From a virus, in IMG/VR virus record IMGVR_UViG_3300046542_000619, positions 1 through 25,558 of that record: a stretch of DNA of 25,558 nucleotides. One strand, written 5' to 3'. The notes beneath the pieces are model-generated. The model ran no database searches, was not told the origin of the DNA, and saw nothing but the letters and a program-made list of their open reading frames with translations. Shown piece after piece: positions 13,607 to 25,558 of this stretch (within the stretch, counting starts at the first letter, position 1; the number at the start of each line of letters is the position of its first letter). Both the position numbers and the translations under genes were made by a program.

Positions 13607-13864
13607 GTAATAGAGGATGCATCTTAATTTAGTGTATTTCTAAAGACATCATTAGTATGAGCGCTGGAACAACATGTCGTGTATGTAGCTAGACGATGTT
13701 TTAGTTTTTTTAAAACTGCAACAAATTTATAGGCAAATTTGATTAGTGTATTCCTCTTAACAAGAGTACTGTTAATATCAAAAATGACTCACTATTAACT
13801 AGCTGCTCATGTTTAGATGATCTGCTTGAGCACGGGGTGTATTCAAATACAAGAGGAAGAAACT
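13607..13864. other. AT-rich divergent intergenic region (V promoter side and HEPN-gene leader)
   Basis: These 258 bp separate minus-strand V from the plus-strand HEPN gene and contain no convincing gene. They must hold the V-operon promoter and that of the HEPN gene. I see a GTTTTA/TAAAAC dyad near 13695-13715 and a CTCTT/AAGAG dyad near 13753-13766. I see no exact TGT-N12-ACA Ogr site and no clear sigma70 pair. The composition contrasts sharply with V, marking the edge of acquired DNA. Confidence 0.55.
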
Positions 13865-15229
13865 ATGCAACTATCGATGGATTTCAAAAAAACAATAGCT
13901 GAGTTAGTTAAGGAGTTTCTACGAACTGATTATGTATTCCAGAATAACCCAAATGAGTACTTTAACGAATTTAAGGGTAATGGAGGATTTTTCACTACTA
14001 TTAACGCACCTGATGATTTATTTCATGAAATGCATAAAAAAAGAAAAGAGAATGCACCCTGCTATTATCAATTGCACCATTCAGAATTATCCCTATGGCT
14101 TATACGAAAACTGGCAGAGAGTGTTAAAAAAACAAGTCAACTCCAATGCAAACCTAGTGAGCTCATTCCCGTGCTCGAAGCTTCACTATATGAATACATA
14201 AATTATCACTTTGAAAATTATTTACAATCCTCAAAAAATGATGATGAGACTGATGAGGTTGAATACAATAAAGTTTTAGAGATTCTGACAAGAAGAATCG
14301 CAGTGCTAAAAAAAGAAATGTCACAGCATACATTCAGATTCCCAGTGACAATATTTGGATTTGAGCATCAGATTCAACTAAGTAAAAATATTTCTCTTAT
14401 TCCTATTGCTTCACACGATAAAGTTGAGGAGGAATTAACTCAACTCAAGAAAACAAGGTTATATGATATAAATTTTTGGCTTGAGATCCAGATTAAAGGA
14501 AAATGTACTGAAGCATTAGCACTTCAATTAGCTGAGAAAGCAAGAGAGTCGACCTTTAATATCCTTCGATTGTTAGCAACCAGATTGTCACCTAACGCTA
14601 TCCCACTATTGTCATCTAGTGACCTACGCCGACATCAATATGATTTCCATATGCACGGAAAATTCAATAATGACTTGGGAAAAAATACAACACGGCACTT
14701 CCCTACAATACACGCAGACTCGGAAGAGTTCTGGAAGAGATTTCATGAGGCTAGAAAAGATAAAAATAATATAATTGATATATCTCTGGAAATATCAGAA
14801 TCACTCCTGTCACTCACTCCATCTAAACCTAGAGTTGTTGAGATTATAGAACGCGCACTTGTATGGTATGGTGATGCAGTAGTTGAACAAAACTCACAGC
14901 AACAAATTCAAAAGTTAGTTATTTCCCTTGAGGCAATAGTTAATTTCAATGATGACGACACAACTGAAACTTTTTGTAGAAGGGTTACCAACTTAAATAT
15001 ATTACACTCTGGATTTAATGATGAAGCCAGAAAAAAAGCAGAAGAGCTTTACAAGGTTCGTTCAAATATTATCCATGGCTCATCAATTAATGAACGACTT
15101 ACATATTGTGCAATAGAGTTCTGTTCAGAAACTTTAATAAGAGCGATTTATTACCTTTATTTATTTGGCTTCACTGAGGTTGAATTTAAAACAAAAGTCG
15201 CCAATCTTTTAGATAATGCCTGTGATTAA
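13865..15229 (+). CDS. Apea-like HEPN domain protein, candidate anti-phage cargo
   Basis: The 454-aa protein ends in an Apea-like HEPN domain. LVISLEAIVNF (around 355-365) is its first helix signature, and YKVRSNIIHGSS carries the RX4H catalytic-type motif (R399, H404). HEPN proteins of this class are typically RNA-cleaving effectors; ApeA is an established anti-phage example. The N-terminal ~330 residues are not recognised; they include acidic and helical stretches such as SSKNDDETDEVEYNKVLEIL. The ATG at 13865 is preferred over one 48 bases upstream because AGAGGAAG lies just before it. The gene is strongly AT-rich, on the opposite strand to its neighbours, and sits where P2 has orf30, so it is foreign cargo. 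Function is inferred. Confidence 0.8.
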   Translation: MQLSMDFKKTIAELVKEFLRTDYVFQNNPNEYFNEFKGNGGFFTTINAPDDLFHEMHKKRKENAPCYYQLHHSELSLWLIRKLAESVKKTSQLQCKPSELIPVLEASLYEYINYHFENYLQSSKNDDETDEVEYNKVLEILTRRIAVLKKEMSQHTFRFPVTIFGFEHQIQLSKNISLIPIASHDKVEEELTQLKKTRLYDINFWLEIQIKGKCTEALALQLAEKARESTFNILRLLATRLSPNAIPLLSSSDLRRHQYDFHMHGKFNNDLGKNTTRHFPTIHADSEEFWKRFHEARKDKNNIIDISLEISESLLSLTPSKPRVVEIIERALVWYGDAVVEQNSQQQIQKLVISLEAIVNFNDDDTTETFCRRVTNLNILHSGFNDEARKKAEELYKVRSNIIHGSSINERLTYCAIEFCSETLIRAIYYLYLFGFTEVEFKTKVANLLDNACD

Positions 15230-21152: not shown

Positions 21153-22925
21153 ATGACCATCACCACCGATACCTCCATTCTTAAAGATCCACGACGACAG
21201 GCGTCACTGCTCTACTGGCAGGGGTTTTCCGTGCCACAGATTGCCGAAATGCTCGGACAGAAACGCCCGACAGTGCAGAGCTGGAAACAGCGCGACGGCT
21301 GGGACGGCATCGCGCCGATCACCCGAGTCGAAAACAGCCTCGAAGCACGATTAATTCAGCTGATTACCAAGCCGAAAAAAGACGGCGGCGACTTCAAAGA
21401 AATCGACCTGTTAGGCCGACAGATTGAGCGGCTGGCTCGGGTGAATCGCTATAACCAGACCGGCAGTGAGGCCGATTTAAATCCCAACGTGGCGAACCGC
21501 AATAAAGGCGAGCGTAAGAAGCCGAAAAAGAACTATTTCAGCGACGAGGCTATCGAAAAGCTTGAGGAGATTTTCTTTGCCGAATCCTTTGAGTATCAGC
21601 TCGGCTGGCATCAGGCAGGACTGCAACACCGTATCCGCAATATCCTCAAATCCCGCCAGATTGGCGCAACATTTTATTTCTCGCGTGAATCGCTGTTACG
21701 CGCCCTGAAAACCGGCCATAACCAGATTTTCCTCTCAGCGTCCAAGACGCAGGCGTATGTGTTCCGCGAGTACATCATCCAGTTTGCGCGCCTGGTCGAT
21801 GTTGACCTGACCGGCGACCCGATTGTCATTGGCAACAACGGCGCAAAGCTGATTTTTCTCGGCACCAATTCCAACACCGCGCAGAGCCATAACGGCGACC
21901 TGCTGGTCGATGAGATTTTCTGGATCCCCAACTTTCAGAAGCTGCGCAAAGTCGCCAGCGGCATGGCATCCCAGCAACACCTGCGCTCGACCTATTTTTC
22001 CACACCTTCCACGCTGGCGCATGGCGCTTACCCGTTCTGGTCAGGCGAGCTGTTTAACAAAGGGCGTGCGGATAAAAGCGAGTGTATTGACCTCGATATC
22101 AGCCATGCGGCATTAAAAAATGGCATGGCCTGCGCCGATGGTCAGTGGCGACAGATTGTGAACATTGAGGACGCACTCGCCGGGGGATGTGACCTGTTTA
22201 ATCTGGACACACTGAAACGCGAAAACAGCGCCGATGATTTCCGCAATTTATTCATGTGTGAATTTGTCGATGACAAGGCTTCGGTATTCCCGTTTGAAGA
22301 GCTGCAACGTTGCATGGTCGACAGCATGGAAGCCTGGGCGGATGACTGGCAGCCGTTCGCCACACGTCCGTTTGGCTATCGCCCGGTGTGGATTGGTTAC
22401 GACCCTTCACACACCGGCGACAGTGCCGGTTGTGTGGTGCTGGCACCGCCAGTGGTGGCCGGAGGTAAATTCCGCATTCTGGAACGCCACCAGTGGAAGG
22501 GCATGGACTTTGCGACACAGGCCGAGTCCATCAAAAAGCTGACCGAAAAATACCACGTCGAATATATCGGTATCGATGCCACCGGTATCGGCCAGGGTGT
22601 GTACCAGCTCGTGCGCGCGTTCTATCCGGCAGCGCGTGAAATTCGCTACAGCCCCGAGGTGAAAACCGCGATGGTGCTCAAAGCCAAAGACACCATTGCT
22701 CGCGGATGTCTGGAATATGACGTGAGTTATACCGACATCACCGCCTCGTTTATGGCTATCCGCAAAACCATGACCAGCAGCGGGCGCAGCGCCACCTATG
22801 ACGCCAGCCGCAGCGAAGAAGCCAGCCACGCCGATGTCGCGTGGGCAACCATGCACGCCCTGTTAAATGAGCCATTAACTGCCGGTAGCGGCAACGCATC
22901 AATCTCAATTCTGGAGTTCAACTAA
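21153..22925 (+). CDS. P: Terminase large subunit gpP (ATPase)
   Basis: The 590-aa product equals P2 gpP, the packaging motor. An N-terminal helix-turn-helix (about residues 20-50, LLYWQGFSVPQIAEMLGQKRPTVQSW) precedes the ATPase. A Walker A-like KSRQIGAT (166-173) and Walker B LLVDE (D253, E254) follow. A C-terminal nuclease-type domain has the acidic residue in GYDPSHTG (D417) and IGIDATGIGQG later. GAGG six bases before the ATG serves as SD. It is co-transcribed with Q, whose start overlaps the P stop (TAATG). Confidence 0.96.
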   Translation: MTITTDTSILKDPRRQASLLYWQGFSVPQIAEMLGQKRPTVQSWKQRDGWDGIAPITRVENSLEARLIQLITKPKKDGGDFKEIDLLGRQIERLARVNRYNQTGSEADLNPNVANRNKGERKKPKKNYFSDEAIEKLEEIFFAESFEYQLGWHQAGLQHRIRNILKSRQIGATFYFSRESLLRALKTGHNQIFLSASKTQAYVFREYIIQFARLVDVDLTGDPIVIGNNGAKLIFLGTNSNTAQSHNGDLLVDEIFWIPNFQKLRKVASGMASQQHLRSTYFSTPSTLAHGAYPFWSGELFNKGRADKSECIDLDISHAALKNGMACADGQWRQIVNIEDALAGGCDLFNLDTLKRENSADDFRNLFMCEFVDDKASVFPFEELQRCMVDSMEAWADDWQPFATRPFGYRPVWIGYDPSHTGDSAGCVVLAPPVVAGGKFRILERHQWKGMDFATQAESIKKLTEKYHVEYIGIDATGIGQGVYQLVRAFYPAAREIRYSPEVKTAMVLKAKDTIARGCLEYDVSYTDITASFMAIRKTMTSSGRSATYDASRSEEASHADVAWATMHALLNEPLTAGSGNASISILEFN

Positions 22926-23959
22926 TGGCGAAGAAACGCAAACATCACGCAGCAAAAAATACCATCACAACACCGGCTGCGGCACCGCAAAAAATGGAAG
23001 CCTTCACCTTTGGTGAGCCGTCGCCGGTGCTCGATCGCCGTGACATTCTGGATTACACCGAGTGCGTCGGGAACGGCAAATGGTTTGAGCCGCCGGTGAG
23101 TTTTACCGGGCTGGCTAAAACGCTGCGCGCCGCCGTGCACCACAGCTCACCGATTTATGTGAAACGCAATATTCTCGCCTCGACCTTTATCCCGCACCCG
23201 CTGCTTTCGCAGCAGGATTTCAGCCGTTTTGCGCTGGATTTTCTGGTGTTCGGCAATGCGTTTTTAGAAAAGCGCATGAGTGTCACCGGCAAGCTATTAC
23301 GGCTGGAAACCTCACCGGCCAAATATACCCGCAAGGGTACCGGCGAGGATGCGTACTGGTTTGTGCAGTCGTTTGTCACCCCGCATGAGTTCGCGCCGGG
23401 TTCTGTGTTTCATTTGCTGGAGCCGGACATTAATCAGGAGCTGTACGGCCTGCCGGAATATCTCAGCGCGCTTAACTCCGCCTGGCTGAATGAATCGGCA
23501 ACGCTTTTCCGTCGCAAGTATTACCAGAACGGCGCGCACGCCGGTTACATCATGTATGTGACGGACGCCGCGCAGAGCAGCACGGATGTGGAATCCCTGC
23601 GCGAAGCGATGCGCAGCTCAAAAGGGCTGGGGAATTTTAAAAACCTGTTTTTCTACGCACCGAACGGCAAACCAGACGGCATTAAAATCGTGCCGCTCAG
23701 TGAGGTGGCGACCAAAGATGATTTCTTTAACATCAAAAAAGCCAGCGCCGAGGATTTAATGAGTGCACACCGTGTGCCGCCGCAAATGATGGGTGTCATC
23801 CCCAACAATACCGGTGGTTTCGGTGACGTAGTGAAGGCCGCACAGGTGTTTGTGCGTAACGAGCTGACGCCGCTGCAGGAGAGAATTAAAGAGGTAAACG
23901 AATGGATTGGTGCCGAGGTGATCCGCTTTAAACCTTACGAGCTGACACCCGCCGAATAA
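22925..23959 (+). CDS. Q: Portal protein gpQ
   Basis: The 344-aa product has the same length as P2 gpQ, the dodecameric portal through which DNA enters the head. Conserved segments include WFEPPVSFTGLAKTLRAAVHHSSPIYVKRNILASTF, LEPDINQELYGLPEYLSALNSAWLNESATLFRRKYYQNGAHAGYIMY and SAHRVPPQMMGVIPNNTGGFGDV. It is the last gene before the cos site and is followed by a hairpin terminator. Confidence 0.96.
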   Translation: MAKKRKHHAAKNTITTPAAAPQKMEAFTFGEPSPVLDRRDILDYTECVGNGKWFEPPVSFTGLAKTLRAAVHHSSPIYVKRNILASTFIPHPLLSQQDFSRFALDFLVFGNAFLEKRMSVTGKLLRLETSPAKYTRKGTGEDAYWFVQSFVTPHEFAPGSVFHLLEPDINQELYGLPEYLSALNSAWLNESATLFRRKYYQNGAHAGYIMYVTDAAQSSTDVESLREAMRSSKGLGNFKNLFFYAPNGKPDGIKIVPLSEVATKDDFFNIKKASAEDLMSAHRVPPQMMGVIPNNTGGFGDVVKAAQVFVRNELTPLQERIKEVNEWIGAEVIRFKPYELTPAE

Positions 23960-23970
23960 CTTCCGATTGC

Positions 23971-23994
23971 AGCCGCTGATATAGCGGCTCTTTT
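23971..23994 (+). terminator. Terminator after Q
   Basis: AGCCGCT (23971-23977) and AGCGGCT (23983-23989) form a 7-bp stem around a 5-base loop, followed by CTTTT. P2 has a comparable hairpin after Q. The T-run is short, so it may be only partly efficient. Confidence 0.7.
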
Positions 23995-24035: not shown

Positions 24036-24134
24036 ACACCGCCAACCACACCCAAGCGAAACGGCACCCCCAAAAACGCTATCACGATGTGCTCAGGCGC
24101 AAATTAAATAAAATAAATACCACGCCAGCGCGCA

Positions 24135-24153
24135 ATGCTATCCCCGCCACGCC
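24135..24153. other. cos site (cohesive-end sequence)
   Basis: ATGCTATCCCCGCCACGCC matches the complement of the 19-base P2 cohesive end at 16 of 19 positions. The flanking CAGCGCGCA to its left is also shared with P2. It lies between Q and the old/tin-position gene, as in P2, so this is where gpM/gpP would cut the genome. The 166 bp to its right carry no gene that I recognise. Confidence 0.87.
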
Positions 24154-24319
24154 TGCCCGCTTCATGGGTCGGTTTTAATGCAGTTGCCTGACATATCGTA
24201 ACCCGTATGACGCCTGGCGCTTTAGAGTGAAAAATTAGTAGATGGATTAATGCAATTTGATGCGTACGGTGCATGCATGACTCATATGGGATCTAAGTCA
24301 TGGAAAATGAACGTTTATT

Positions 24320-25558
24320 ATGGAAGATCGCTCTTCTATCTCAAGTAATATGGATTTTATGATGAGTCGGTCAGCTAAGCAGATTCAACTGGTTTGTGCG
24401 TTACGCGAATACGAACGTGATAATAAAAATTTTACGATAGGCGATTTAGTGGCCAAAACAGGCTACAACGAAAACAGTGTACGGAAATATATTAATGAGA
24501 AATTAAATGGCGTACATCTACACCAAATAGACGAAAAACTGTGGCGAGCCGAAGGGGTGCTCAAGCTTTCTGATGACGATTTCTGCCAGTTGATGTCACA
24601 GTCTTTAAAAGCGAAAGCTCTAACGCCCGACATGCGCCTAAGTCGTAGCTTGATGAAACGTAGCCTTGATGCTTTTACACTTGCATTAGAAGTATACAAT
24701 CGTCCTAGCTTAGAGAACCGAGTTGAGGCTTTTTGCATTTTTTCTGTCAATGCTTGGGAACTGATGCTGAAGGCCATTCTGATAAAAACATCCGGCTCGG
24801 AAGCTGTTTTTCAAAAGAATAGACGCTCGATTTCTATTACCGATGCGGTAAATAAAACTTTGCAGCAGAATGACCCCATTAGAAAAAACATTGAATCATT
24901 GATTGAGCTCCGAGATAGCGCCATTCATCTGCTGATCCCAGAGCTACAACCTCAATTGTCCCGCTTATTTCAAGCTAATGTACTGAACTATCAACAAAGA
25001 TACACCCTCGAAATGGGTTGTTCGCCACTTTCTGGCCAAAGTGTTGGCATGCTCAGTTTAGTTGTAGATGGAGCTCATAGTGAAATCGCGATGATTAAGG
25101 AAAACTATGGAGAGATGACAGCAGATGCCGTGGCTGAATTTTTAGATAAATTTAATAAAACTGCAGCGGAAGCTAATTCCTTTGAGTTCAGTATTCCGAT
25201 GGATTACCGTTTGACATTAAGTCGCAGTAAGAAAAATAGTGATTTGGTGCTGAGTACAGGTGATAACGGCCAAAAGGCCATTATCATTAGGGAAACAAAG
25301 GACCCTGACACAACTCATCCACATTATAGCACTGGTGCAATTGCACTTATAAATTCAAAGCAAGATGTCAATATAACCACGTATTCATTTCAGGCCGTAA
25401 TAAAAAAACATGGTATTCAAAAAGATAGAAAATCTGAAATGCACTATGAAATTGATAGCCGACACCGTTATTCAGATAAATTCATCAATTGGTTCATTTC
25501 TAATCTATCACAGCCTAACTGGTTAGATGATGCAATTGCATCATACAAAAGAAAATAG
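24320..25558 (+). CDS. wHTH-HEPN (DUF3644-type) protein, candidate anti-phage cargo
   Basis: The 412-aa product has an N-terminal helix-turn-helix (about residues 36-60, FTIGDLVAKTGYNENSVRKYI). The middle is of DUF3644 type, a HEPN family: SVNAWELMLKAILIK (about 144-158) and LRDSAIHLL with the RX4H motif R198-H203. A C-terminal ~130-residue domain ending NWFISNLSQPNWLDD is not assigned. HEPN RX4H proteins are usually RNases; an anti-phage or phage-exclusion role is inferred from motif and place. It is AT-rich, unlike Q, and sits just past cos at the old/tin position. The start is uncertain: ATG 24320 and 24359 are in frame and neither has a good SD. The TAG ends at the last base of the window. 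Confidence 0.78.
   Translation: MEDRSSISSNMDFMMSRSAKQIQLVCALREYERDNKNFTIGDLVAKTGYNENSVRKYINEKLNGVHLHQIDEKLWRAEGVLKLSDDDFCQLMSQSLKAKALTPDMRLSRSLMKRSLDAFTLALEVYNRPSLENRVEAFCIFSVNAWELMLKAILIKTSGSEAVFQKNRRSISITDAVNKTLQQNDPIRKNIESLIELRDSAIHLLIPELQPQLSRLFQANVLNYQQRYTLEMGCSPLSGQSVGMLSLVVDGAHSEIAMIKENYGEMTADAVAEFLDKFNKTAAEANSFEFSIPMDYRLTLSRSKKNSDLVLSTGDNGQKAIIIRETKDPDTTHPHYSTGAIALINSKQDVNITTYSFQAVIKKHGIQKDRKSEMHYEIDSRHRYSDKFINWFISNLSQPNWLDDAIASYKRK

Follow-up and report, generated by a model that had tools for sequence, protein, structure and literature searches.

Several described systems resemble the gene discussed here, each in only part of its features. In a 2013 survey of HEPN proteins, Anantharaman et al. 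described the EC042_2821 family as a wHTH, a HEPN domain and a novel restriction endonuclease (REase) C-terminal domain (CTD), found in an R-M operon (PMC3710099). Related profiles, namely PHROG 9605 and PDC-S19, which is a single-gene candidate defence system of PADLOC with candidate status only, match a HEPN domain and a CTD. As for location, Rousset et al. 2022 reported that the slot between gpQ/cos and gpA in P2 is a hotspot of anti-phage systems, carrying old-tin and validated defence genes (PMC9122126). Finally, Tha, a tail-activated HEPN protein of S. aureus prophages, is an abortive-infection RNase whose RX4H histidine is required for defence (PMC11087260). In the literature that we searched, we found no functional tests of any DUF3644 protein, the family to which the HEPN domain described below belongs.

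We analysed a virus record of IMG/VR, 25,558 bp long and hereafter called the window. It starts at the host gene yegQ/trhP, covers the late genes of a P2-like prophage and terminates on the stop codon of a DUF3644 gene. The host yegQ/trhP shares 81% identity with its E. coli counterpart, so the host is likely an enterobacterium, but not E. coli. Both gene order and BLAST put the prophage beside phage P2; for instance, a P2-type P gene that matches phage P2 by BLAST lies at 21153-22925, upstream of the features collected in the table. A 19-mer as similar to cos as the one listed there would be expected by chance 0.005 times in the window, counting both strands. The DUF3644 gene begins 166 bp from cos, and in phage P2 the equivalent place is occupied by old and tin. 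Like the systems of Rousset et al., the gene thus lies in the gpQ/cos-gpA slot in the orientation of old; unlike them, DUF3644 is not named in the main text of that publication. Between genes S and V, in a cargo slot of the orf30 type, the window also has a 470-aa ORF of 34.5% GC at 13817-15229 (+). It is an orphan cargo gene: Pfam, PADLOC, NCBIfam and PHROG gave no significant family match, and neither named phages nor IMG/VR yielded a relative.

Table. Features of the hotspot and of the DUF3644 gene in the window
Feature	Position	Strand	Evidence and remarks
Portal gene gpQ, flanking the hotspot on the left	22925..23959	+	75% in blastn against Q of P2 and of other P2-like phages
Stem-loop downstream of gpQ with CTTTT behind it, corresponding to the tQ terminator	23971..23989	+	Read from the sequence; equivalent found in the sibling locus by scan; tQ is annotated in P2
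Segment identical to sibling prophage L002 (putative exchanged cassette)	24091..25558		Alignment to L002, 100% identity
P2-type cos site, GGCGTGGCGGGGATAGCAT	24135..24153	-	3/19 mismatches to P2 cosL; same position as cos in phage P2
wHTH-HEPN(DUF3644)-PF18740 gene	24320..25558	+	412 aa, ATG start, intact; candidate single-gene abortive-infection effector
N-terminal winged helix, residues 15-90	24362..24589	+	AlphaFold2 pLDDT mostly 87-96; common to five homologues from other bacteria
HEPN domain, residues 101-235	24620..25024	+	DUF3644 profile; HEPN structural matches
RX4H motif R198-H203 (RDSAIH), predicted RNase active site	24911..24928	+	Invariant, 60/60
C-terminal domain, residues 326-409, PF18740 (EC042_2821-like), modelled as MerR-type winged helix	25295..25546	+	Profile; 60/60 relatives; structural matches

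The right flank of the hotspot lies outside the window, and we therefore read the downstream context from a sibling prophage (L002, contig 2833053935_000008) that carries an identical DUF3644 gene and in which gpA follows downstream. The DNA identity between the two is 100% from 24091 to the end of the window, compared with 94% for the full 9.3-kb alignment; thus, the segment looks like a cassette exchanged at cos, with its boundary 44 bp before that site. This hotspot appears to have the DUF3644 gene as only a rare occupant, given that none of 5,426 complete E. coli genomes had a DNA match to it and that the 46 records from named phages comprised only distant Gram-positive relatives with less than 60% identity, none of them enterobacterial by name.

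The initial annotation had described an AT-rich gene next to cos in the old/tin hotspot, encoding a wHTH and a HEPN core with an RX4H motif, and each of these points was borne out. The ORF is uninterrupted. Its GC content is 39.5%, lower than in genes P and Q (54%) and in the window as a whole (53.4%). Translation may in fact begin at M15 (24362), the point at which a Vibrio homologue with 56% identity starts. An antisense ORF at 24463-24777(-) overlaps it. The DUF3644 profile matches residues 111-280 (E=7e-44; 150 bits against a gathering score of 27.6), PDC-S19 matches residues 107-398 (E=4e-72) and PHROG 9605 matches residues 107-403 (E=3e-64), although the last two models begin at the HEPN domain and have no N-terminal wHTH. 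Its membership in the family of PDC-S19 makes a defence role for the protein probable. We found no credible sequence relative with a solved structure for the 412-aa protein, and its whole AlphaFold2 model (mean pLDDT 84) had no PDB match in Foldseek at E<=0.001 and one short, unnamed match in the viral library. When the domains are considered separately, most of the six best PDB entries for the helical bundle carry the name of a HEPN domain or of the HepT toxin, with Z values of 8.5-9.5, which are modest for a helical bundle, and rmsd of 3.0-3.9 over 112-122 residues (4nqf, Z 9.5; 2hsb, Z 9.3; HepT 6m6u, Z 8.9; sacsin HEPN, Z 8.6). The N-terminal domain, in turn, resembles CymR (3t8r, Z 8.4), IdeR, MarR and Z-alpha. 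In an alignment of 60 sequences, from which all our conservation counts are taken, N144-K151 (NAWELMLK) is as invariant as the RX4H motif, and all 60 match both Pfam families, PF18740 at E <= 0.01.

Most of these relatives come from Firmicutes (prophages, satellites and genomes), others from Actinobacteria, Gammaproteobacteria and further phyla. The vast majority are around 320-350 aa long and have no N-terminal wHTH. Those that bear a wHTH are, in addition to the protein of the window, homologues from Vibrio sp. D404a (L082), two Gammaproteobacteria (L229 and L230), Catenovulum (L227) and a Legionella plasmid (L226). The N-terminal extension of a further relative (L003) was considered as a possible wHTH and dropped, given that its peptides recur in otherwise non-matching contigs. 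The Vibrio homologue (403 aa, aligned over its full length) shares the wHTH, the RX4H motif and the CTD but lies outside any P2 prophage: in the region L082 5070-9212 (+), parA/parB-like genes are immediately upstream of it and a transposase-like gene is its neighbour. The copy on the Legionella longbeachae plasmid (L226 5980-6540, +) stops at residue 186, just before an IS3 transposase gene, and is apparently truncated, while another wHTH-bearing relative (L229/L240) sits amid housekeeping genes with no obvious mobile element.

The initial annotation had left residues 280-412 as an unassigned domain, but the region matches PF18740 both in all the relatives and in the protein itself, with 27.0 bits when the CTD is scanned alone and 23.2 in the whole-protein scan, for a cut-off of 24.9. 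Folded separately with AlphaFold2 from 58 relatives (mean pLDDT 83), the CTD for the most part matched DNA-binding domains of MerR type (HiNmlR, Z 5.7 and rmsd 2.0; CarH, 5.6; RacA, 5.5; TnrA, 5.1), below a top row for an Xrn1 domain (Z 6.9). None of these Z values is high enough to be trusted singly, but the MerR rows are consistent among themselves and fit the secondary structure. This weak but consistent evidence suggests that residues 326-409 form a MerR-type winged helix rather than the restriction endonuclease of the Pfam name. A CTD of this type was also observed fused to a Schlafen AlbA_2 domain in another contig (L235 847-1791, +), where residues 328-393 of our query match at 37%; thus, the CTD would be a mobile module used with different effectors.

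The three-part architecture of the protein is not new, since the EC042_2821 family was already described as such in the 2013 survey, and, judging from that published description, the domain set and order are the same (wHTH, RX4H HEPN, PF18740). The differences lie in the setting, which is a P2 prophage hotspot rather than an R-M operon, and in the CTD, which is modelled as a MerR-type winged helix rather than an REase. Our main reading, to which we give a probability of about two in three, is that the gene is a moron (lysogenic-conversion) gene of a P2-like prophage and a candidate single-protein abortive-infection effector. In its favour are the invariance of the RX4H motif, the HEPN fold, the PDC-S19 match, the location in a slot for defence genes, the low GC and cassette-like exchange of the DNA, and the lack of a recurrent partner gene. 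According to this proposal, the HEPN domain would dimerise, with R198 and H203 of both chains sharing one RNA-cutting cleft. The protein would be kept inactive in the uninfected lysogen until some feature of an incoming phage freed it, after which RNA would be degraded and the infection would fail along with the cell. The terminal winged helices would most likely hold the resting dimer and read the trigger, which might be a nucleic acid or a phage protein. By analogy, Tha offers a precedent for RX4H-dependent defence by a prophage-borne protein, although it is a different HEPN protein, set apart by its description: its HEPN domain is C-terminal, it has no discernible N-terminal domain and it has an overlapping antisense inhibitor.

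A reading that we regard as tentative is that the family as a whole is a self-contained nucleic-acid-sensing RNase, sensor and effector in one polypeptide, in which the HEPN dimer carries wings at both ends, the C-terminal one being a MerR-type wHTH misnamed REase-like, and the binding of phage DNA or RNA would switch the RNase on. The initial annotation had likewise suggested a self-regulated or nucleic-acid-sensing effector, a proposal that gains no backing from the rarity of the wHTH among the relatives or from the region upstream of the gene. The only notable inverted repeat before the start codon (CATGACT-N13-AGTCATG, 24276-24302) lies directly upstream of it, but we rejected this repeat as an autoregulatory operator, given that 17% of shuffles equal it, which is within chance, and that none is reported upstream of three homologues.

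Several points count against the abortive-infection reading: the family has only candidate status in PADLOC, the papers searched yielded no functional test of a DUF3644 protein, the HEPN Z values are modest, the wHTH-bearing relative L229/L240 has housekeeping genes around it, and some RX4H HEPN proteins are the toxins of toxin-antitoxin systems. It is conceivable, though unlikely, that this protein acts as the toxin in a toxin-antitoxin or addiction pair whose role is to stabilise the prophage, the toxicity of its HEPN RNase being restrained by a partner. HEPN proteins are often toxins (PMC3710099), and HEPN toxins such as HepT are among the structural matches. However, the possible partner gene beyond the stop codon that the initial annotation had raised is not seen in the sibling prophage: the gene is followed by 340 bp without a gene, then by a convergent cassette that encodes a RelA/SpoT protein (220 aa) and a ParA-like ATPase (369 aa), and then by gpA, cox and the integrase, with no co-directional neighbour. 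Nor is there an MNT gene nearby, and no recurrent partner was found in the four Gram-positive phages and satellites that we inspected. In these elements, the HEPN-PF18740 gene is single and within about 2 kb of the integrase, and in two of the four it lies just downstream of repressor-type genes.

The convergent cassette deserves a separate comment. Its RelA/SpoT gene overlaps the ParA-like ATPase gene (L002 9579-11347, -) in the same cos hotspot, and an ORF for a KGGVGK ATPase is directly upstream of the RelA/SpoT relative in 10 of 11 IMG/VR contigs, the sibling included, the eleventh contig being cut short. The two genes together resemble a cassette for toxic-synthetase defence or a toxin-antitoxin cassette.

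We also consider it improbable that the protein is a dual nuclease in which the HEPN RNase is combined with a PF18740 REase-like DNase that cuts incoming DNA. Both the Pfam name and the 2013 annotation call PF18740 REase-like, an E325-x-K327 pattern follows a hydrophobic stretch, and residues 286-327 are modelled at low confidence, which leaves room for a catalytic core. On the other hand, residues 326-409 adopt a MerR-like winged helix in two AlphaFold2 models, neither of which has an REase core, and no REase structures appeared among the structural matches of the CTD, although this is not proof of absence. The E-x-K pattern is only partly conserved, with an acidic residue at 325 in 90% of the sequences (R, K, Q or V in others) and lysine at 327 in 47 of the 60 (Q, R, V or H in others), and the CTD has no invariant acidic residue. 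Given the partial conservation of the pattern and the low confidence at 286-327, the dual-nuclease explanation is only weakened by these observations. Least probable is that the protein is a prophage transcriptional regulator that uses HEPN only to dimerise and binds DNA through the two wHTHs, as might be read from the two predicted winged helices and the inverted repeat before the start. This repeat is within chance and without reported counterparts upstream of three homologues, no regulatory target is apparent, and the fact that R198 and H203 never vary points to catalysis.

In conclusion, the protein family had already been described from sequence, and what is new is a DUF3644 HEPN gene as an occupant of the P2 hotspot. 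Genes of this type are common in prophages and satellites across many phyla, and a member located in a P2 prophage constitutes a system that is easily cloned in laboratory E. coli; thus, the function of the DUF3644 family and its trigger become directly testable. Furthermore, if the C-terminal winged helix is true, the misleading REase-like name of the Pfam entry would be corrected for the whole family.
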